Source: Betaproteobacteria bacterium (GTDB lineage: Bacteria; Pseudomonadota; Gammaproteobacteria; Burkholderiales; SG8-41). From it: a stretch of DNA of 58,610 nt. The notes beneath the pieces were generated by a model that was not told the origin of the DNA, ran no database searches, and saw only the letters and a program-made list of their open reading frames with translations. The position numbers and the translations under genes were made by a program. This document shows, in pieces, positions 3,112 through 13,550 of the stretch. The stretch is taken from assembly GCA_021732605.1 (NCBI GenBank), contig JAKFUS010000037.1, positions 1 to 58,610 on the forward strand, read 5' to 3'. The stretch's first letter is position 1. Each line of letters starts with the position of its first letter.

Positions 3112-3462
3112 ATGCAGTTGAAACTTGCTGCTTTATGGCTGGCCTGCGCCGCATTCGGCACGTCGAATGCAATGGCACAGCAGCGCGCCAACACCAATCC
3201 GGCAGACCCGCGGGCTGAAGCACCGCCGACGCGATACGAGTCGGCATTTACCGGCTATCAGTCGTTTCGCGATGAAAAGCTCGCACCCTGGCGCGAAGTC
3301 AATGACGAAGTCGGTCGCATCGGCGGCCAGATCGGCATCTTCGGCGGCGCACACGCCGGACACGGTGGCGGCAGAAGCGTTGAGAACACTCTCGCTCCGG
3401 CGGCGACTCCGCAAAAGCCCACGCCGATGCATGGGCCAGGCCATCAAGGAATGAAAAAATGA
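3112..3462 (+). CDS. Small secreted His/Met-rich protein of the copper cluster
   Basis: Unrecognised 116-residue protein with a signal peptide (MQLKLAALWLACAAFGTSNAM, cleavage near AMAQQ). The mature region is hydrophilic. It carries an AHAGHGGG stretch and ends in MHGPGHQGMKK, both plausible copper-binding segments. The ATG at 3112 follows a GGGGA ribosome-binding site. The stop overlaps the start of the TolC-like gene (ATGA at 3459), so the two are probably translated together. Similar small ORFs are often found between copper efflux and multicopper-oxidase genes, but no biochemical function can be assigned from sequence. Confidence 0.7.
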   Translation: MQLKLAALWLACAAFGTSNAMAQQRANTNPADPRAEAPPTRYESAFTGYQSFRDEKLAPWREVNDEVGRIGGQIGIFGGAHAGHGGGRSVENTLAPAATPQKPTPMHGPGHQGMKK

Positions 3463-4892
3463 GTTCATCAAATCAAACCACCCGCCATCCAATGCGAACC
3501 GCAACCACCCTTTGCGTGCTGGTATTTCTGGGCGGCTGCGCAACGTTCTCGAAAGACAACGGCTTGGGAAGCGTGCAAAGCGCAACCAAGGCACGCGGAC
3601 TCGAACAGGACGTGCAGTGGATCAAGACTGAACAGGACGCCGAAAAAGCCCGTACCGCGGTCAAAAAACTGCTGGCGGCTCCGCTGACCGCCGATACCGC
3701 GGTGCAGATTACGCTGCTCAACAACCGCGGCCTGCAGGCCACCTATGCCGAACTCGGCATCGCCGAGGCGGATGTGGTTCAAGCCGGGAGGTTGACCAAC
3801 CCCGGCTTCACCTTCGAGCGCCTGCATCGCGGCGATGATGTTTCGATTGACCGCACCTTCCTGTTCAACATCCTCGGCCTGATCACGATGCCGATCCGCA
3901 CCGACCTCGAGAAAAAACGCTTTGCATTGACCCAAGGACGCGTCGCCGCAGAAACATTGCAGACCGCGGCAGATACGCGTCGTGCCTGGCATTCAGCGGT
4001 GGCCGCGCAGGAGTCCGTGAAATACATGGAACAGGTGCGGATGGCCGCGGAAAGCAGCGCCGAGCTGGCGCGCCGGATGGCGGCCGTCGGCAACTTCAGC
4101 AGGCTGGATCAGGCGCGCGAGCAGTCGTTTTATGCCGAAGCCACAGCCCAGCTGGCGCGCACAAAACAGCAGGCACTGGCTGAACGCGAGCGGCTCACCC
4201 GTTTGCTGGGGCTGTGGGGCGAAGATATCCGTTTCAGTTTGCCCGAGCGTCTGCCCGATCTGCCCAAAGCACCGAGAGAAATTGCTGATCTCGAATCCAC
4301 TGCCCTCCGCCAGCGCCTCGACGTCCAGGGCGCCATGCAGGAAGCGGAGAACATCGCCGCCTCGATGGGGCTGACCAAGGCGTCCGGTTTCATCAACGTC
4401 TTGGAAGTCGGCTACCGCCGCAACAGCGAAACCGGCCAGCCGCGCCAGACCGGTTACGAAATCGAGTTGCGGCTGCCGATCTTCGACTGGGGCAGCGCCC
4501 GCGTCGCGCGCGCCGAATACACCTATATGCAGGCGGTCAATCGCGCAGCCGATACTGCCGTCAGGGCCCGCTCCGAAGTACGCGAGGCCTACTCCGCGTA
4601 CCGCACTGCGTACGACCTGACCAAACATTACCGCGACGAAATCGTGCCGCTGAGGAAACGCATCTCGGAAGAAAACCTGCTGCGCTACAACGGCATGCTG
4701 ATCAGCGTGTTTGAACTGCTGGCCGACGCCCGCCAGCAGGTCGGCAGTGTCAACGCCTACATCGAAACCCTGCGCGATTACTGGCTCAGTGAAACCAGTC
4801 TCAATCTCGCGCTGAACGGCAAATCACCGGGCGCCATGAGTCTCGGCGCAAGCAGCGGTATGCAGGCCGCCGCAGATGCACCCGGCCACTGA
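3459..4892 (+). CDS. TolC/CusC-type outer-membrane efflux lipoprotein
   Basis: A 477-residue outer-membrane factor of the TolC family, expected to form a trimeric channel for export out of the periplasm. A lipobox (FLGGC) ends the signal sequence, and two long alternating-helix halves follow, with AYSAYRTAYDLTKHYRDEI in the second. The start at 3459 gives an ATGA overlap with the previous gene. An internal ATG at 3492 would begin right at the signal peptide and cannot be excluded. No RND pump or membrane-fusion gene is adjacent, so any partner pump must be encoded elsewhere. Copper as substrate is inferred from context. Confidence 0.88.
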   Translation: MSSSNQTTRHPMRTATTLCVLVFLGGCATFSKDNGLGSVQSATKARGLEQDVQWIKTEQDAEKARTAVKKLLAAPLTADTAVQITLLNNRGLQATYAELGIAEADVVQAGRLTNPGFTFERLHRGDDVSIDRTFLFNILGLITMPIRTDLEKKRFALTQGRVAAETLQTAADTRRAWHSAVAAQESVKYMEQVRMAAESSAELARRMAAVGNFSRLDQAREQSFYAEATAQLARTKQQALAERERLTRLLGLWGEDIRFSLPERLPDLPKAPREIADLESTALRQRLDVQGAMQEAENIAASMGLTKASGFINVLEVGYRRNSETGQPRQTGYEIELRLPIFDWGSARVARAEYTYMQAVNRAADTAVRARSEVREAYSAYRTAYDLTKHYRDEIVPLRKRISEENLLRYNGMLISVFELLADARQQVGSVNAYIETLRDYWLSETSLNLALNGKSPGAMSLGASSGMQAAADAPGH

Positions 4893-4910: not shown

Positions 4911-5465
4911 ATGAATTACTCACTACTGTTTGCTGCCGCACTCGCCATTCTGCTGCCCGGCCTCGCCATTGCTCAGCACTCCGGTTATGCCGGGCAGGAA
5001 CAACGCATCATCAAAGCGCTGTCCGCCGAGGAAACACAGCAATATCTTTCAGGCGCCGGCATGGGCTACGCCCGTGCGGCAGAGCTCAACCGCTATCCCG
5101 GCCCGATGCATGTACTCGAGCTCGAAAAACCGCTTGCACTCACTGCCGGGCAACGGGTCGCTACGCAACAGTTGATGGACACTCATAAAACCGAAGCGCG
5201 CACCATTGGCGCCCGGCTGATCACCGCCGAGCAGGATCTCGACCGGTTGTTCGCTGACAGCGCCATCACCCAGGCCGCGCTGGCACAGCAGGTGCAAACC
5301 GTCGCCGCGCTGCGTGGCGAGTACCGGCTGTCGCACCTCGAAACCCATCGCCAGATGCGCACCCTGCTGACCCCGCATCAGGTCATGCAATACGACCAGT
5401 TGCGTGGTTACACCGATGGCAATGCCCATGAATCCCGGCCGCGCCACAACGCGCCGCATCACTGA
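4911..5465 (+). CDS. Periplasmic Spy/CpxP/ZraP-like metal-stress protein
   Basis: A 184-residue exported protein with a signal peptide ending near AIAQH. The mature part is predicted all-helical, with the heptad-like stretches AGQRVATQQLMDTHKTEA and LETHRQMRTLLTPHQVMQY. This is the pattern of Spy/CpxP-type chaperones (LTxxQ elements: ALTAGQ and LLTPHQ). The tail ends in a His-rich segment (HNAPHH). AGGAG is positioned 7 bases upstream of the ATG. It lies between the TolC-like gene and the multicopper oxidase, with short gaps, so it is most likely part of the copper operon, acting as a periplasmic chaperone or metal buffer. Confidence 0.75.
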   Translation: MNYSLLFAAALAILLPGLAIAQHSGYAGQEQRIIKALSAEETQQYLSGAGMGYARAAELNRYPGPMHVLELEKPLALTAGQRVATQQLMDTHKTEARTIGARLITAEQDLDRLFADSAITQAALAQQVQTVAALRGEYRLSHLETHRQMRTLLTPHQVMQYDQLRGYTDGNAHESRPRHNAPHH

Positions 5466-5476
5466 TCGGACATCCC

Positions 5477-6868
5477 ATGAATAACAGACGAAACTTTCTG
5501 CGCGCTGGCGGCGCCCTGCTCGGCGCCGCTGCAGTCAGCCGCGCGGCACAGGGCGCGGTACCTGAAGCGCCGATGCAAACCAAAGCCGAGATGCAGCAAC
5601 CGCTGGTGCCGCCGAACGGCCGGCCATATCAGCCGGTGGCGACGCTGAACGGGTGGACCCTGCCCTGGCGCATGAACAACGGCTGGAAAGAATTCCACCT
5701 CGTCGCCGAACCGGTGCGCCGGCAGATGGCCCCCGGCATGACCGCGCACCTGTGGGGCTACAACGGCCAGTCGCCGGGCCCGACCATTGAGTGTGTCGAG
5801 GGCGACAAGCTGCGCATTTTCGTCACCAACAAACTGCCCGAACACACGACCATCCACTGGCACGGCATCCTGTTGCACAACGGCATGGACGGCGTCGGCG
5901 GGCTGACACAGCCGCAGATTCCAGTCGGCAAAACCTTTGTCTATGAATTCGAGATGAAAAAATCCGGCACCTTCATGTACCACCCGCATGCCGATGAAAT
6001 GGTGCAGATGGCCATGGGCATGATGGGATTTTTCGTGGTGCATCCGAAGAATCCCAGTTTCATGAAAGTGGATCGCGACTTCGTGTTCCTGATCAATGCC
6101 TACGACATCGCTCCAGGCGCCTACACCCCGAAAATCGCGACCATGACCGACTTCAACCTGTGGTCATGGAACAGTCGCGTATTTCCGGGCATCGACCACT
6201 TTGTCGTCCGCAAGGGAGACAGGGTGCGCATCCGTTTCGGCAACCTGACCATGACCAACCATCCGATCCACATGCACGGCTACGATTTCGAAGTGACCTG
6301 CACCGACGGCGGCTGGGTGCCGAAAAGCGCACGCTGGCCGGAAGTCACAGTGGATGTGGCGGTCGGCCAGATGCGGGCGTTTGAGTTCGTCGCTGATACG
6401 CCCGGTGACTGGGCCATCCATTGCCACAAGTCGCACCACACGATGAACGCAATGGGCCACAACGTGCCGACGATGATCGGCGTCGATCATCGCGGCATCG
6501 CGCAGAAGATCATCAACCTGGTGCCGGACTACATGGTGATGGGCGAACGCGGCATGGCCGACATGGGAGAGATGGAAATGCAGATTCCGGACAATACGCT
6601 GCCGATGATGACCGGCACCGGACCGTTCGGCGCGATCGAGATGGGCGGCATGTTCAGCGTGGTCAAAGTGCGCGAGGGACTGGCGCGGAACGATTACAAG
6701 GATCCGGGCTGGTACCAACATCCACCGGGAACAGTGGCCTCTGAATGGACCGGCGCGCCACCGGTTGCGGAACGCCCGAAATCCGCACCTCAGGCTGCCG
6801 CCAAGCCAGCCACCCCCGAACGTGAGGTCCGAGTACGGAAACCCGCCGGCGGTCATGCGGGCCATTAA
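5477..6868 (+). CDS. Multicopper oxidase (copper-resistance type)
   Basis: A 463-residue periplasmic multicopper oxidase, probably oxidising Cu(I) to the less toxic Cu(II). The N-terminus (NNRRNFLRAGGALLGAAAV) is a Tat signal. All four copper-site motifs are present: HWHG (about residue 124), HPHAD (about 170), HPIHMHG (about 262), and HCHKSHH with downstream AMG (about 315). A Met-rich segment around residues 355-385 (MVMGERGMADMGEMEM) resembles copper-loading regions in CopA/CueO-type enzymes. Starts 12 bases after the preceding stop. The C-terminal extension, rich in Ala, Pro and Lys, is probably unstructured. Confidence 0.93.
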   Translation: MNNRRNFLRAGGALLGAAAVSRAAQGAVPEAPMQTKAEMQQPLVPPNGRPYQPVATLNGWTLPWRMNNGWKEFHLVAEPVRRQMAPGMTAHLWGYNGQSPGPTIECVEGDKLRIFVTNKLPEHTTIHWHGILLHNGMDGVGGLTQPQIPVGKTFVYEFEMKKSGTFMYHPHADEMVQMAMGMMGFFVVHPKNPSFMKVDRDFVFLINAYDIAPGAYTPKIATMTDFNLWSWNSRVFPGIDHFVVRKGDRVRIRFGNLTMTNHPIHMHGYDFEVTCTDGGWVPKSARWPEVTVDVAVGQMRAFEFVADTPGDWAIHCHKSHHTMNAMGHNVPTMIGVDHRGIAQKIINLVPDYMVMGERGMADMGEMEMQIPDNTLPMMTGTGPFGAIEMGGMFSVVKVREGLARNDYKDPGWYQHPPGTVASEWTGAPPVAERPKSAPQAAAKPATPEREVRVRKPAGGHAGH

Positions 6869-6895
6869 TTATTATTAAAAATCAAGGAGTTATAT

Positions 6896-7384
6896 ATGAA
6901 AATCCGTCCCGCGTTTATCGCCGCGCTGATCATGGTCACAGCCCCCGCAGCCTGGGCGCACAGTGACGCCAAAAACCCGGCTGCCGCCAAAAAAACCATC
7001 TCTACCGAGGAAAAAGCTTTCGGCCGCGAAGGCGACCCGAAAAAGGCCGTGCGCACCGTCAATGTCGACATGAGCGACAAAATGCGTTTCACCCCGGACA
7101 CACTCACCATCAAACAGGGCGAGACCATCAAGTTCGTAGTCAAGAATTCCGGCAAGACCATGCATGAGTTTGTGCTCGGTACCCTGAGCGAACTGAAGGA
7201 ACACGCCAAGCTGATGCAGAAGTTTCCGGGCATGGAGCACGATGAGCCGTATATGGCGCATGTCGCGCCAGGCAAAACCGAAACCATTATCTGGCAATTC
7301 ACCAAAGCGGGGAATTTTAATTTCGGCTGCCTGCTGCCCGGCCATTTCGAGGCCGGCATGGTCGGCAATGTTGCCGTCAAATGA
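6896..7384 (+). CDS. Periplasmic cupredoxin (type I copper protein, CopI-like)
   Basis: A 162-residue exported blue-copper protein. After a signal peptide (cleavage near AWAH), the cupredoxin fold runs from about residue 45 to the end. Type I ligands are visible: His in TMHEF, then Cys, His and Met in FGCLLPGHFEAGM. An acidic, His/Met-bearing insertion (FPGMEHDEPYMAH) lies between strands. A strong AAGGAG site precedes the ATG. It follows the multicopper oxidase by 27 bases, which fits a role as electron acceptor or copper carrier for that enzyme. The role is inferred from context. Confidence 0.88.
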   Translation: MKIRPAFIAALIMVTAPAAWAHSDAKNPAAAKKTISTEEKAFGREGDPKKAVRTVNVDMSDKMRFTPDTLTIKQGETIKFVVKNSGKTMHEFVLGTLSELKEHAKLMQKFPGMEHDEPYMAHVAPGKTETIIWQFTKAGNFNFGCLLPGHFEAGMVGNVAVK

Positions 7385-7497: not shown

Positions 7498-7845
7498 ATG
7501 AACCGCAGCGCTCTTATTCTCGCTTCAACTGTTTTTTCCCTGACCGCCCTGCCGCTGGGCGCGCAGACGACCGATCACAAAGCTCATCATCCTGAAGCAG
7601 GCAAAGTGGCACAGACTGCCGCTCCAATGACCGACGGCGAAATCCGCAAAGTCGACATGGACGCCAAAAAAATCACCATCCGCCATGGCGCGATCGAGAA
7701 TCTCGGCATGCCGCCGATGACCATGGTGTTCCAGGTCAAGGATCCAGCACTGCTGCAAAAAGTAAAAACCGGAGACAAGGTCAAGTTCCTCGCCGAGAAA
7801 ACCGGCGGCGCGTACACGGTGCTGCAGATTGAACCTGCAAAATAA
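7498..7845 (+). CDS. cusF: CusF-like periplasmic copper chaperone
   Basis: A 115-residue exported protein whose domain (about residues 45-113) matches the CusF small beta-barrel: GEIRKVD, KITIRHG and NLGMPPMTMVF. In E. coli CusF, Cu(I) is held by His36, Met47 and Met49 with Trp44 capping. Here the His (IRHG) and both Met (MTM) are present, and the Trp position appears to be Met (GMPPMTM). A His pair region (DHKAHH) follows the signal peptide. It would deliver copper to an efflux complex or the neighbouring copper proteins. The preceding gap of 113 bases contains a hairpin. Confidence 0.88.
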   Translation: MNRSALILASTVFSLTALPLGAQTTDHKAHHPEAGKVAQTAAPMTDGEIRKVDMDAKKITIRHGAIENLGMPPMTMVFQVKDPALLQKVKTGDKVKFLAEKTGGAYTVLQIEPAK

Positions 7846-7903: not shown

Positions 7904-8296
7904 GTGTCTCGAATCAGTGCCTCATTGCGAAAGTTCCACGCCGGCGCCAAGCAACGGTTTTATCCACTCGCCGCATTGGTATTGCTAAGCCTGCTGCTGG
8001 CAGGACTGCCAGCAGCCCGGGAATTTTTCTCCGGGTCGGCGGTAGCGGAGGAGCATGGACAGTACAACAAAAGTCCGGTCATCATGTACAGCACCCCCTG
8101 GTGCCCGTACTGCAAAAAGGCGCGCGAGTATTTCAAGCGTCATCGGTTCAGCTATGTCGAATACGATATCGAGGCCTCGGCGGCAAATCTTGAGAATTTT
8201 CGCGCCCTCAACGGCCACGGCGTACCATTGATCCTGGTCGGAGACCGGCGCATGCAGGGCTTCAGCCCGCAGTCGTTCGAAGCGCTGCTGAAGTAA
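7904..8296 (+). CDS. Membrane-anchored periplasmic glutaredoxin-like protein
   Basis: A 130-residue protein with one N-terminal membrane segment (about residues 20-40) and a glutaredoxin domain (about 56-130). It has the classical CPYC active site in STPWCPYCKKA, the GVPLI cis-Pro motif and a GFSP segment. The anchor places the domain in the periplasm. GTG start at 7904. It lies directly upstream (45 bases) of the DUF411 gene with the in-frame TGA. A thiol-disulfide enzyme here could keep Cys or selenocysteine residues of the neighbouring copper proteins reduced. That pairing is inferred. Confidence 0.85.
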   Translation: MSRISASLRKFHAGAKQRFYPLAALVLLSLLLAGLPAAREFFSGSAVAEEHGQYNKSPVIMYSTPWCPYCKKAREYFKRHRFSYVEYDIEASAANLENFRALNGHGVPLILVGDRRMQGFSPQSFEALLK

Positions 8297-8341
8297 GCTT
8301 CGGACTGACAGCATCTTTCGCCTTCCTGATGGAGTGATGAC

Positions 8342-8779
8342 ATGACAAGCAGAAGGAACTTCATACTGGCGCTCACTGCCTTAGCAGCAGCGCCAGTGCT
8401 CGCCGCGGAACCACCGCTGGTCACGGTTTACCTCAATCCGACCTGAGGCTGCTGCGGCGCGTGGATGGATCATCTGCGCACCAACGGCTTCCGTGTGAAG
8501 CCGGTTGCAGTTGAAGACACCCGTGTCGAGCGCAAGCGCCGCGGCATTCCCGATGCACTGGGCGGCTGCCATACCGGCGTTGTAGGTGGATACGCCGTCG
8601 AAGGCCATGTTCCGGCGCGTGAAATCAAACGCCTGCTGGCCGAACGGCCTGCCGCAGCCGGCCTTGCCGTGCCCGGCATGCCGCAGGGTTCGCCGGGTAT
8701 GGAATCCCCCACGCCCCAGGCTTATAACGTGCTGCTGGTCGACAAAAAAGGCCGTCATTCCATCTACGCACGTTACTGA
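8342..8779 (+). CDS. DUF411/CopG-like copper protein with in-frame TGA: candidate selenoprotein
   Basis: Read through one TGA (8444-8446), this frame encodes a 145-residue exported protein with all DUF411/CopG landmarks in order: signal peptide (RRNFILALTALAAAPVLAAE), VYLNPT-[TGA]-GCCGAWMDHL, GGCHTGVVGGYAVEGHVPA, IKRLLAERP and GLAVPGMPQGSPGME. DUF411 proteins normally have CGCC, so the TGA sits exactly at the first, metal-binding Cys (codon 35). GGAG lies 7 bases before the ATG. The frame stays fully conserved for 110 codons after the TGA and has no other defect, which argues against a dead gene. A hairpin of SECIS type starts 12 bases later. The main alternative is a TGC-to-TGA nonsense mutation. 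Re-initiation at ATG 8465 would lose the whole motif. CopG-type proteins bind copper through a cysteine-based cluster, and selenium at this site would be a chemical upgrade. Proof needs selA/selB/selC in the same genome. Confidence 0.75.
8456..8482 (+). promoter_or_regulatory. Candidate bacterial SECIS hairpin downstream of the TGA
   Basis: Bases 8459-8467 pair with 8471-8479 (nine consecutive pairs, two of them G-U) around the triloop GAT (8468-8470). Two more G-C pairs (8456-8457 with 8481-8482) follow one mismatch. The first loop base is G, and the loop begins 21 bases after the TGA (8444-8446). Bacterial SECIS elements are coding-region hairpins whose apical loop lies roughly 16-37 bases after the UGA and has G in its first positions, so distance and loop both fit. 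The bulged U important in E. coli fdhF is not obvious. Hairpins do arise by chance in GC-rich coding DNA. Confidence 0.6.
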
Positions 8780-8869: not shown

Positions 8870-9215
8870 ACCGGCGATCCGGAACTGACCCGGCTTTCGC
8901 TGCAGAAAGTCGGGTTCCACATACTCACGGCCACCAGCCCCCTAACGGCTTCAAGCTGCCTGCCTGCAACCGGGTGGGTATCGTGATCTCCGAAACAAAC
9001 ATGCCTGAGATGGGCGGCGTGGCATCCATGCGGCAAATCCAGTTGATGTATCCCGACGTAATGCGCATGATGCTCAGCGGGGCCGGCAATTTCGGCATTG
9101 CGATGACGGCCATCAATGAGCGAGGGGTCCACAAGTTTTTCGTCAAAAGCCATGATTCAGAAATGCTGCGCAGCGAGATCAAACGAAAATCCGGCATGCG
9201 CCCGGCCATGCCATC
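8870..9215 (+). pseudogene. Decayed response-regulator receiver-domain fragment
   Basis: The two-frame translation parallels the C-terminal receiver domain of the large downstream protein (9543-13550): LTRLSLQKVGFHILTATS in one frame (about 8886-8940), then after a 1-base deletion near 8945 GFKLPACNRVGIVISETNMP, LMYPDVMRMMLSG, and AINERGVHKFFVKSHD in the next. The phospho-acceptor Asp of the motif DENMP is Glu here (ETNMP). There is no start codon, output domain or intact N-terminus. It is most likely the surviving tail of a paralogue or a partial duplication. The rest of 8780-9542 shows no gene. I see only upstream sequence for the next one. Confidence 0.7.
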
Positions 9216-9542
9216 CCGGCATTCAGCGCAGGCCCCCGGCGACCAAGCCGACCACAGACTAACGGCTCGAAGCCTGCCGCCGGACAGGGCATTGCACAGT
9301 CCCGGGAAACCATATTATTGAGATAAAATCGGTCTGCCTGTTTTACGTGCCCACCTTTCCCGCAGCTTCATACGCACCACAATCTTGCAAATTTGCCTTA
9401 ATCTAGCGCACTAATTTGCGCAGCATGGAAGTGCAACGAATGAGTCGCCCCCCCCAGCGCTGCCCTTGGTTATTGCCAGCCGATCCGTACCGATACGGTC
9501 GCCGGTTGTGTATCCCGAGACTGATTTGACCGGATTGTGGAA

Positions 9543-12500
9543 ATGCAGCAGATGATGCGAACAGAAAACGGGTTGAATGTGCTGATCGTCGAAGATCAGC
9601 CGTTCGACGCGGAACTGATCGAAAAAGAGCTGCAGACAGCGGGCCTTGAATTCTCCTGCCTCAGGGTTGAAACCGAATCCGCATTCCGTACCGCCCTGGC
9701 CGACAGACCGGACATCGTGCTCTCCGAATACCACCTGCCACGGTTCAGCGGCCTGCGCGCCCTCGCCATACTCCGCGAATCAGGCATGGACATTCCGTTC
9801 ATCCTGATTTCCGGCGGCATCAACGAAGAACAGGCCGTTGAAGTCATGCGTCTGGGAGCCGATGACTTCCTGCTCAAAGACCGTCTGGGCCGGCTCGGCG
9901 CCGCCATCACCGGCGCCATCGAGCGACGGCAGTTACGGGCAAGCGCACGGCAAACCGAGCAGCGTTACCGTACCACCTTCGAGCATGCACCCATCGGCAT
10001 CACACATTCCGGCCTGGACGGCCGTTTCATCGAAATCAATCCGCAGGCCTGCGAAATTCTTGGTTACCCGCGCGAAGAACTGCTGACCCGTACGTTCCTC
10101 GACGTCACGCATCCCGCCGACCGCGATACTTCAAGTGCCTTCCGCAAACAACTGATCGCAGGCCTTGGCACCCGCGATCCGTACCGGGAAAAACGCTATA
10201 TCCGCCGGGATCAGTCAATCGTCTGGGTAACCGTGTCGCTCGCGCTGGCGCGCAAACCCGACGGTACCCCCGATTTCTTCGTCACGATGTTCCAGGATAT
10301 CTCCAGCCGGAAGTCTGCGGAAGAACGTTTCCGCACCACTTTTGAACAAGCCACTGTCGGCATTTCCCACACCTCGCTTGATGACCGCTACCTGATGGTC
10401 AATCAGAAGTTTTGCGACATGGTCGGCTTCAGCCGTGACGAAATACTCAACATGAGCACCGGTCGCATCGTGCACCCCGAGGACCAGGGCCGGGATCGGG
10501 CGCTGCGCCGGCAACTGCTCGCCGGTGAAATCGGCAATTTCTCCGGTGAAAAGCGCTACATCCGCAAGAACGGCAAGACGTTCTGGGTCAACCGCACCAT
10601 ATCGGTGGCGCGCGACGAGGACGGCAAGCCGCTTTACCTGATCCGGGTCGTCGAGGACATCACCCGGCGCAAGGAGGAAGAGGAGCGTTTTCGCGCGGCC
10701 TTCGATCAGGCGGCCGTCGGCATCGCACGTACTGATCTTGAACGCAGCATCATCTCCACCAACCGGAAATTCTGTGAAATAACCGGTTACACAAAGGAAG
10801 AACTTCGGGGTGTGAATCTGCGACAGATCAGCCATCCGGATGATCGGGGCAAAGATACCGGCTTGAGGCAACGACTCCTGGCCGGGGAAATAGACCATCT
10901 TCAATCCGAGCGGCGTTACATCCGCAAGGACGGCAGCGTCATCTGGGTCCGGCGGACGACATCCCTGGCGCAGGGCATCGCGAACGACGTCTCAAATTAC
11001 ATTTTCGTGGTCGAGGACATCACTGCCCGCAGGATGGTCGAAGAGAGTTATCGCGCGACGTTCGACAACGCGCCGATCGGCATCATGCACAGCACCGCAG
11101 AACTGAAGATCCTGCATGTCAACCCCAAGCTCTGCGAGATACTGGGTTATACGCGTGAAGAACTGTTGGCGATGAAAACCTCCGATTTTCTGTCCCCGGA
11201 CGACCGAAAATCCGACCGTTCGCAATATCTTGAGCAGATGCTGAAAGGGGAAATACGGAATTTTTCTTCCGAGCGTCCGTTCGTCCGCAAAGATGGCAGC
11301 ATCGTGTGGACCAACCGCACGGTTTCGCTGGTACGGGACAGTGCCGGGCAACCGCTTTATTTCCTGCGCATCATCGAAGACATCTCGGAACGCAAGCGCG
11401 CCGAGGATGCACTCGCGCAGGAGAGGCTATTGCTGCGCACCATCGTCGATGCCATCCCCGACCGCATTTATGTCAAGGATATCGAAGGACGTTTCGTCCT
11501 GCAGAACGCCGCCAATCTGCAATTACGCGGCTTCAATCGCCACGAAGACGTCGTCGGCAAGACCGTGTTCGACATTTTCCCGTCGCAACTGGCCCGGCGC
11601 ATCCACGACGAAGATCAGGAGATCATCCGGTCCGGCGAGCCGCTGATCGACCGTGAGAGCCGCACCTATTTCGGCGCCAGCGATGGTCATGAGGACGCGA
11701 TCCACTGGCAACTGACGTCAAAAATACCCCTGAAAAATGCCGATGGCGCCATCTATGGACTGGTCGGCGTCAACCGCGACATCACTGAACGCAAACAGTC
11801 CAGCGAACGCCTGGCGCATCTGGCCCACTACGACAGCGTGACCGGCCTGCCGAATCGGGTGCTGCTGCACGACCGCCTCAGCCAATCCATCGCCCAGGCG
11901 CGCAGAAACAGCTTGTTCGTCGGCGTACTGTTCCTCGACCTGGACCGCTTCAAGCTGGTCAATGACACACTGGGTCACTCAGCCGGGGATCTGTTGCTGA
12001 AACAGGTCGCAATACACCTGACCCAGGCGCTGCGGCCCAGCGATACCGTCGGCCGCCTGAGCGGCGATGAATTTGCCGTGATCCTGCCCGAACTCGCCAC
12101 ACCGCAGAATGCGGGGCTGGTTGCGCAGAAACTGATCGACCTGCTGAACCTGCCCTTCGATCTTGACGGCAACGAGGTGTTCGTCACGGCCAGCATCGGC
12201 ATCACGATCTACCCCACAGACAGCGACAACATCGAAACCCTGATCCGCGACGCCGATGCGGCGATGTATGGCGCAAAATCCGCTGGCCGCAACAATTATC
12301 AGTACTACACCGCGGAAATGAACCAGCGCGCGAACGAAAAGCTGCGCCTTGAAACCAGACTGCGCCGCGCGATCGAACGCGAGGAGTTTGTCCTGCATTA
12401 CCAGCCCAAGGTCGATATCGCGACAGGGAAAATCACCGGTCTTGAAGCGCTGCTGCGCTGGCAATCGCCAGATGAAGGGCTGGTGGGACCCAATCAATTC

Positions 12501-13550
12501 ATACCGATGCTGGAAGAAACAGGGCTGATCTCGCCGGTCGGAGACTGGGTCATCCGTCAGGCATGCGCCCAGATCCGTGACTGGCGCAAAGCCGGCATCA
12601 CGCTGGTGGCAGTGGCCGTGAATCTTTCTGCCCGGCAACTGCGCCAGACCGGCTTTGGTGCCACCCTCGGGCGCGCACTGACCGAATTCAGCGTGCCTGC
12701 AGAACTGATCGAAATCGAAATCACCGAGAGCTCGCTGATGGAGAATCCGGAGCAGGCCATCGTCGTACTTACAGAAATTGCAAATCTCGGCGTCCGCCTG
12801 TCGGCTGACGATTTCGGCACGGGATATTCCAGCCTGAGTTACCTGAAACGGTTGCCGCTGGATGCGCTGAAAATCGACCGCTCCTTCGTTCGCGACATCA
12901 CCTCCGATCCGGACGACGCCGCAATCACCAGGACGGTGATCACGCTTGCACATGGCCTGGACCTCAAGGTGATTGCCGAGGGCGTGGAAACCGAGGAGCA
13001 ACTGGCATTTCTGGGCCAGAACCAATGTGACGAGGCGCAGGGCTATCTGTTCTCGCGCCCCCTGCCCGTCGATGCCTGCACCAAGCTGCTGTCGCAGGGA
13101 AGCGCCCTGCATCCGGCGCGGGTGACGGCAAGCGCCGAAGACATCCCCGCCGTGTTGCTGGTTGACGATGACCCCGATCATCTGATGCTGACGCGGCTCC
13201 TGCTGCAACGCGGCGGACACCGGGTGCTGGAAACGACCAGTACGCGTGATGCCTTCGAACTGCTGGCAACGAACCGGGTGAGCATCATCATTGCCGATGA
13301 AAACATGCCGGGCATGAGCGGCGTCGAATTCCTGCGGCGCGCCAAACTGATGTACCCCGACTCCATGCGCATCATGTTCAGCAGTGACAGCGATTTTGGC
13401 ACCGCAACAGCCGCCATCAACGATGGTGAAGTCCACAAATTTTTCGTCAAGGGCCGTGACGAGGAGTTGTTAAGCCGCGAAATCAGCAAAAAATTCCGCC
13501 AGGACCGGGCCCATCAGCCGGAAATGCAGTCCTCGCCCGATGTGAATTGA
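9543..13550 (+). CDS. Large c-di-GMP signalling protein: REC - five PAS - GGDEF - EAL - REC
   Basis: About 1335 residues, no signal peptide or membrane segment, so a cytoplasmic hybrid sensor. Order with rough positions: receiver 13-130, PAS modules starting at about 142, 263, 383, 503 and 630, diguanylate cyclase 775-935 with SGDEF at about 840, EAL phosphodiesterase 945-1195 with EALLRW (about 969) and DDFGTGYSS, and a second receiver 1202-1325. The N-terminal receiver has Glu at the phospho-acceptor position (VLSEYHLP), while the C-terminal one keeps Asp (ADENMP). The GGDEF motif starts with Ser, which is often still active. Start codon uncertain: GTG 9537, ATG 9543, 9552 and 9555 are all in frame with no clear ribosome-binding site. 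The signal sensed is unknown. Confidence 0.92.
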   Translation: MQQMMRTENGLNVLIVEDQPFDAELIEKELQTAGLEFSCLRVETESAFRTALADRPDIVLSEYHLPRFSGLRALAILRESGMDIPFILISGGINEEQAVEVMRLGADDFLLKDRLGRLGAAITGAIERRQLRASARQTEQRYRTTFEHAPIGITHSGLDGRFIEINPQACEILGYPREELLTRTFLDVTHPADRDTSSAFRKQLIAGLGTRDPYREKRYIRRDQSIVWVTVSLALARKPDGTPDFFVTMFQDISSRKSAEERFRTTFEQATVGISHTSLDDRYLMVNQKFCDMVGFSRDEILNMSTGRIVHPEDQGRDRALRRQLLAGEIGNFSGEKRYIRKNGKTFWVNRTISVARDEDGKPLYLIRVVEDITRRKEEEERFRAAFDQAAVGIARTDLERSIISTNRKFCEITGYTKEELRGVNLRQISHPDDRGKDTGLRQRLLAGEIDHLQSERRYIRKDGSVIWVRRTTSLAQGIANDVSNYIFVVEDITARRMVEESYRATFDNAPIGIMHSTAELKILHVNPKLCEILGYTREELLAMKTSDFLSPDDRKSDRSQYLEQMLKGEIRNFSSERPFVRKDGSIVWTNRTVSLVRDSAGQPLYFLRIIEDISERKRAEDALAQERLLLRTIVDAIPDRIYVKDIEGRFVLQNAANLQLRGFNRHEDVVGKTVFDIFPSQLARRIHDEDQEIIRSGEPLIDRESRTYFGASDGHEDAIHWQLTSKIPLKNADGAIYGLVGVNRDITERKQSSERLAHLAHYDSVTGLPNRVLLHDRLSQSIAQARRNSLFVGVLFLDLDRFKLVNDTLGHSAGDLLLKQVAIHLTQALRPSDTVGRLSGDEFAVILPELATPQNAGLVAQKLIDLLNLPFDLDGNEVFVTASIGITIYPTDSDNIETLIRDADAAMYGAKSAGRNNYQYYTAEMNQRANEKLRLETRLRRAIEREEFVLHYQPKVDIATGKITGLEALLRWQSPDEGLVGPNQFIPMLEETGLISPVGDWVIRQACAQIRDWRKAGITLVAVAVNLSARQLRQTGFGATLGRALTEFSVPAELIEIEITESSLMENPEQAIVVLTEIANLGVRLSADDFGTGYSSLSYLKRLPLDALKIDRSFVRDITSDPDDAAITRTVITLAHGLDLKVIAEGVETEEQLAFLGQNQCDEAQGYLFSRPLPVDACTKLLSQGSALHPARVTASAEDIPAVLLVDDDPDHLMLTRLLLQRGGHRVLETTSTRDAFELLATNRVSIIIADENMPGMSGVEFLRRAKLMYPDSMRIMFSSDSDFGTATAAINDGEVHKFFVKGRDEELLSREISKKFRQDRAHQPEMQSSPDVN

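Follow-up and report, generated by a model that had tools for sequence, protein, structure and literature searches.

CopG of Pseudomonas aeruginosa (Hausrath 2020, as given via PMC7558416 and PMC8456105) is represented by the structures 6wis and 6wje, which the PDB names 'DUF411 domain-containing protein' and the first of which PMC7558416 names CopG. In passages of these two papers the protein is described as holding a tetranuclear Cu cluster by a CxCC motif and two methionines, with Cu(I) oxidation proposed as its role. CutG carries the motifs C40xC42C43 and M120x6M127, and Ala mutants of these motifs in Rhodobacter capsulatus had little effect on CutO activity, according to a section of PMC8456105. 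Among selenoproteins, most of those lacking an assigned function look like thiol oxidoreductases, as stated in part of a 2026 inventory (PMC13188914). Here we describe a DUF411 gene that very probably encodes a selenoprotein, namely a CopG/CutG-type copper protein carrying selenocysteine (Sec), a reading built on comparative sequence analysis.

The gene belongs to Betaproteobacteria bacterium GCA_021732605.1 and lies on contig JAKFUS010000037.1, of which positions 1 to 58,610 make up the whole stretch of DNA analysed, hereafter the window. Its features and upstream neighbours are as follows:

3459 to 4892, plus strand: outer-membrane efflux protein (OEP), upstream in the same direction
4911 to 5465, plus strand: LTXXQ/Spy-CpxP-like protein, neighbour (match below cut-off)
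5477 to 6868, plus strand: multicopper oxidase, neighbour
6896 to 7384, plus strand: CopI-like cupredoxin, neighbour (below the NCBIfam cut-off)
7498 to 7845, plus strand: CusF-like periplasmic copper-binding protein, neighbour
7904 to 8296, plus strand: glutaredoxin-like protein (CPYC), neighbour
8331 to 8334, plus strand: GGAG, likely ribosome-binding site, 7 nt ahead of the ATG at 8342
8342 to 8779, plus strand: DUF411/CopG-like gene with a TGA proposed to be read as selenocysteine, 145 aa, stop TGA at 8777-8779
8342 to 8407, plus strand: signal peptide with a twin-arginine-like SRRNFI motif (by eye; export predicted)
8444 to 8446, plus strand: in-frame TGA (codon 35), proposed selenocysteine codon, at the first position of U/CxCC
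8447 to 8455, plus strand: Gly-Cys-Cys, remainder of the copper-binding motif
8456 to 8482, plus strand: proposed bacterial SECIS hairpin, 11 of 12 pairs in the window's copy, 3-nt loop GAT

The coordinates, frame, motif and DUF411 landmarks given in the original prediction were all correct (ATG at 8342, TGA at 8444-8446), and the ribosome-binding site that it had called good is probably the GGAG listed above. Codon 35 stands in the context NPT-U-GCCGAW, after which the frame is open until the stop TGA; the TGA at 8444-8446 is the single internal stop, and the frame is open whatever residue it encodes. Pfam DUF411 (PF04214) matches residues 74-120 at 90.4 bits against a gathering score of 27, and residues 23-145 align in sequence with 6wis/6wje at E 2.5e-30, CGCC facing UGCC. 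In an alignment of 19 sequences that writes U as C, columns 35-38 are invariant, as are U35, C37, C38, M113 and M120, and R4 is almost invariant. Counted with Sec as its first Cys, UGCC is a CxCC motif, and M113 and M120 form the Mx6M. These five residues match the ligands of CopG and CutG, from which we infer that Sec serves as a copper ligand in place of the first Cys; for the copper cluster of the window protein we consider such a role slightly favoured. The SRRNFI stretch (RRxF) near the N-terminus, which we take to be a Tat-type motif, suggests export by the Tat route.

The copper-related surroundings recur among relatives. Within the fetched flanks, many of them short, one or more of multicopper oxidase, cupredoxin and CusF adjoin DUF411 in 15 of the 17 same-genus relatives, 13 of which have all three, in 12 of 32 other-genus matches and in 1 of 12 Acidobacteriota loci. 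The glutaredoxin-like gene adjoining the DUF411 gene resembles Uxx-star (seleno)protein models, though below threshold, and is shared only by L016/L109 among the relatives examined. On the other side, 8974-9321 is a response-regulator fragment that starts within the receiver domain, its below-cut-off Pfam match covering positions 44-110 of 111; it lies just ahead of a large PAS/GGDEF/EAL-like protein (9537-13550, by eye) whose C-terminal sequence it resembles, and looks like a duplication remnant.

The TGA at codon 35 is conserved well beyond the window. A homology scan of genome contigs was followed by retention of the best 80 of 285 loci, in which codon 35, called by a tblastn-based codon map and not by regular expression, is TGA in 17 (16 betaproteobacterial and one acidobacterial, judged by record titles) and TGC or TGT (Cys) in 63. 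(A superseded regular-expression screen of the 80 loci had put 16 at codon 35, misplaced 5 and returned none for 59.) When 74 genomes of the window's family were searched with a profile, 50 DUF411 matches were recovered in 46 of them, with TGA at codon 35 in 45, TGC in 3 and the region absent or too partial in 2; a TGA copy was found in every one of the family's nine genera. This set and the 80-locus set have species in common and are not independent. In Acidobacteriota, a TGA-bearing DNA pattern matched 12 of 297 genomes, each time an in-frame DUF411 gene with UGCC, and the reversed pattern matched none; among 398 genomes sampled from the window's own phylum, the window was the sole match. 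A pattern admitting TGA, TGC or TGT gave 45 matches in 44 of 300 genomes sampled from the window's order: the six with TGA come from six of the nine genomes sampled in the window's family, and the 39 with TGC or TGT all fall in other families. The latter are presumed DUF411 genes on the strength of the pattern, which misses members with different flanking residues. The reversed control matched once in this sample.

Both sides of the TGA evolve under purifying selection. Across 17 same-genus TGA genes, pN/pS is 0.374 in codons 24-34 and 0.319 in codons 51-145, and the two sides are thus retained as one protein. Close relatives with an ordinary Cys and a decaying frame had been named in advance as grounds for discarding the selenoprotein reading; one close relative does have Cys (L022 = L106), and the frame is under purifying selection. 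This relative (G007/G039) groups among the TGA loci but has TGC at codon 35 while its hairpin is retained; it looks like a recent reversion from Sec to Cys. Separately, the DUF411 relative L140 (G076) has CGCG, not CGCC, and thus lacks the third motif Cys, and the MAG containing L048 is titled Bordetella parapertussis, a name that looks wrong for a DUF411 gene grouping with the window's environmental family.

The genome encodes the machinery for selenocysteine. In this assembly (3.48 Mb, 75 contigs, 96.5% complete), models identify selB (423 bits), tRNA-Sec on the selB contig (75.9 bits) and selD (L096, 421 bits), and a selA-like ORF lies immediately upstream of selB (by eye). The presence of selB and tRNA-Sec settles in favour of the prediction one of the refuting conditions that it had named. 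The selD gene has a single in-frame TGA, in the context GGG-U-GCK, presumably the usual Sec site of SelD, and is thereby itself a predicted selenoprotein gene. At locus L099, a thioredoxin-reductase-like FAD/NAD(P) protein (5948-6874, by eye) directly follows selB and precedes tRNA-Sec, and is possibly a selenium-related gene. Within the window's family, selB scores above cut-off in 65 of 74 genomes, including 39 of the 41 of good quality. Of the 43 genomes that carry DUF411 with TGA, 40 have selB, and the three in which it was not found are 62, 80 and 84% complete. For the 80-locus set, selB is present in 16 of 17 TGA genomes; it was not found in the Cys genome G007 (L022 = L106; a draft, 74% complete), which has tRNA-Sec. 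Together these 18 genomes include 17 with tRNA-Sec, the TGA genome G016 giving no match. All 12 Acidobacteriota genomes matched by the pattern have selB, as do 30 of 40 comparators; in that phylum selB is therefore consistent with Sec use but only weakly associated with DUF411 genes that carry TGA.

A hairpin lies directly downstream of the motif. Codons 39-47 of most same-genus sequences fold into a 12-bp stem capped by a 3-nt loop that begins with G, the stem starting 9 nt and the loop 21 nt from the TGA; the window's copy has one mismatch, and many other-genus sequences have a 5-nt loop. A bSECIS-type element was recognised in the main clade only, the window's copy included. Synonymous differences per comparable pair among 17 Sec genes (16 loci plus the window) fall to 0.092 in codons 36-50 against 0.252-0.575 in other stretches, that is, 2.7-6 times fewer in the hairpin codons than in the rest of the gene; the corresponding values for the 63 Cys genes are 0.374 and 0.479-0.591. 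Among the 17 same-genus TGA genes, pS in codons 36-50 drops to 0.125, and in 28 other-genus TGA genes the drop is much weaker (0.478 versus 0.619 in codons 51-145). When folding energies are compared with codon-shuffled nulls, z < -2 is reached by 28 of the 45 Sec genes and by 6 of the 63 Cys genes (mean z -2.16 versus -0.38). The window gene has z -2.23, with 16 of 500 codon shuffles equally low, and two (L106, L145) of the three Cys copies in its family also have z < -2. No excess stability was detected in the six sequences of a second betaproteobacterial Sec subclade (z +0.22 to -1.21) or in L092 (z +0.97), and the 12 Acidobacteriota sequences have a mean z of -0.76, just one lying below -2; a SECIS is expected in these acidobacterial DUF411 genes.

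The main-clade helix covaries. Pairs, counted on a structure that was derived from the same sequences, are formed in 83.6% of helix cells as against 74.0% after shuffling, and double-sided changes number 31 as against 11.3, neither value being reached in any of 500 shuffles; sliding the partner strand gives at most 49.3% pairing. Some changes couple a protein-changing base with a silent one, for instance a Met- or Ile-to-Val change at column 22 with the third base of a His codon at column 30. In 19 of the 34 distinct sequences the pair 24-28 does not form. RNAalifold on all 45 sequences yields just -3.4 and -1.1 kcal/mol, a weak consensus because the subclades differ. In the window, an Rfam scan returned no matches and ARAGORN no genes.

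These observations bear directly on how the TGA might otherwise be explained. A nonsense mutation or sequencing error, leaving a pseudogene or a codon that is truly TGC and a Sec reading that is coincidental, needs a single step from TGC to TGA and can point to the TGC of the close relative L022 = L106. Twelve Acidobacteriota genes and 45 of the family's 50 matches nevertheless share the TGA at this codon, selection acts on both sides of it in a frame with no further internal stop, and the hairpin region is under a constraint of its own; with the TGA conserved, the frame selected and the hairpin constrained, we reject this account as having a negligible probability. It is also very improbable that the TGA is a real stop that ends a 34-residue secreted peptide, followed by a second protein from ATG 8465 that would have neither signal peptide nor UxCC. 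Such an ATG does open a 104-aa ORF after the TGA, but only 17 of the 45 TGA sequences have it, the non-TGA state is always Cys (63 loci of the 80-locus set and three family copies), and between the TGA and ATG 8465 residues G36, C37, C38 and W41 never vary across 19 sequences, while G39 and A40 hardly do. An internal restart at 8465 is rejected on the invariant residues ahead of the ATG and its presence in 17 of 45 sequences.

Decoding outside the Sec system, whether by near-cognate readthrough or by a reassigned code (Trp or Cys), would fit a frame that stays open for any residue at the TGA. It can hardly be credited, however, when TGA also terminates the DUF411 gene and many more of the window's ORFs, the internal TGA aligns with Cys, the Sec machinery is present, SelD itself has a TGA at its usual Sec site, and the hairpin covaries and folds with z < -2 far more often in Sec than in Cys genes. 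Code reassignment is accordingly rejected on TGA stops elsewhere in the window, the Cys alignment, the Sec machinery and the hairpin. A different kind of alternative accepts the selenoprotein and makes Sec a redox residue, with selenenylsulfide-type chemistry and copper not bound through Sec. The resemblance of most uncharacterised selenoproteins to thiol oxidoreductases (in part of PMC13188914) favours it, as does the glutaredoxin-like gene just upstream in the window, although L016/L109 alone among relatives share that gene. With the CopG ligand positions (CxCC and two Met) all conserved and copper genes adjoining DUF411 in 15 of 17 same-genus relatives, we regard this alternative as possible yet rather unlikely. 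The candidate selenoprotein is, by contrast, supported by selB and tRNA-Sec in the genome and by the conservation of TGA in relatives that the original prediction had suggested looking for: codon 35 is TGA in 45 of the family's 50 matches, and in 17 same-genus TGA genes the stretches before and after it are under purifying selection.

Two trees describe the history of the Sec codon. The first has 111 rows and excludes L148 and L149 (too short) and L022 (the same gene as L106); the second has 85 rows, for which 25 of 62 Cys loci were hand-picked. On the latter, the Sec/Cys label needs at least seven changes, of which well-supported branches force only two, with 34 of the tree's 82 inner branches open. 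The main betaproteobacterial Sec group contains one Cys gene (L106). Of the second betaproteobacterial subclade's six genes, four cluster with Sec genes from Acidobacteriota; other acidobacterial Sec genes are placed elsewhere. Either repeated gain of Sec or transfer between phyla is likely, and the grouping of the second type with acidobacterial genes suggests transfer. Two genomes hold two TGA copies each (L125 and L142 in G024; L128 and L144 in G025), one of each betaproteobacterial type.

Under the selenoprotein reading, a ribosome meeting the UGA at codon 35 would find, 9 nt further on, a hairpin that recruits SelB with Sec-tRNA; Sec would be inserted and translation would run on to the true stop, likewise a UGA. 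The precursor would then be exported, perhaps via the Tat route, and the mature protein would fold as a thioredoxin-like domain in which UxCC together with M113 and M120 may hold Cu(I), the Sec selenolate standing in for the thiolate of the first CxCC Cys. Its probable role would be to oxidise and buffer periplasmic Cu(I) alongside the neighbouring multicopper oxidase, cupredoxin and CusF. In broader terms, we lean modestly towards a polynuclear copper(I) site in which a Sec ligand replaces the CopG Cys, gained repeatedly or spread between phyla, and tuning periplasmic copper redox chemistry or detoxification.

The original prediction did not count DUF411 among the established selenoprotein families, and this holds within the inventory, NCBIfam and the literature checked. 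DUF411/CopG is absent from the table of 119 families in the 2026 inventory (PMC13188914), and the window protein matches no NCBIfam model. Full-text literature searches returned nothing combining DUF411 with selenoprotein, or CopG with selenoprotein and copper resistance; the sole match for COG3019 with selenocysteine concerns Tat in alphaproteobacteria. A prior mention is possible because a 2026 groundwater MAG study is said to contain unvalidated selenoprotein candidates. The best reading of these sequence comparisons is that DUF411/CopG constitutes a new selenoprotein family, missing from the inventories checked. If so, a copper-resistance family joins the selenoproteins, and selenium and copper metabolism are joined in environmental bacteria, here a single betaproteobacterial family of environmental origin together with some acidobacteria. 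Gene callers probably truncate or miss the DUF411 gene at the TGA in such lineages. The natural Sec/Cys series, including the apparent Sec-to-Cys revertant, offers a way to ask why selenium is used at a copper site.

Among selenoproteins already listed in Table 1 of PMC13188914, the SO_0444 family Cu/Zn efflux transporter and the CopZ-family (2Fe-2S) proteins are linked to copper by name, but they belong to other families without a CxCC DUF411 domain. Thioredoxin-like UxC/UxxC selenoproteins (for example PF13192 Sec.2; same table) are of the class predicted for the window protein and have Sec first in the motif, as proposed for that protein, but their motif is not CxCC and the Pfam family is different. 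CutG of Rhodobacter capsulatus, as described in part of PMC8456105, shares the motifs and a multicopper oxidase gene alongside, and differs in having Cys and in its operon, cutFOG. CopG of P. aeruginosa resembles the window protein in its homologous residues 23-145, the position of CxCC, the two methionines and the company of copper genes, and differs from it at the first position of the motif, which is Cys in CopG and predicted to be Sec in the window protein.
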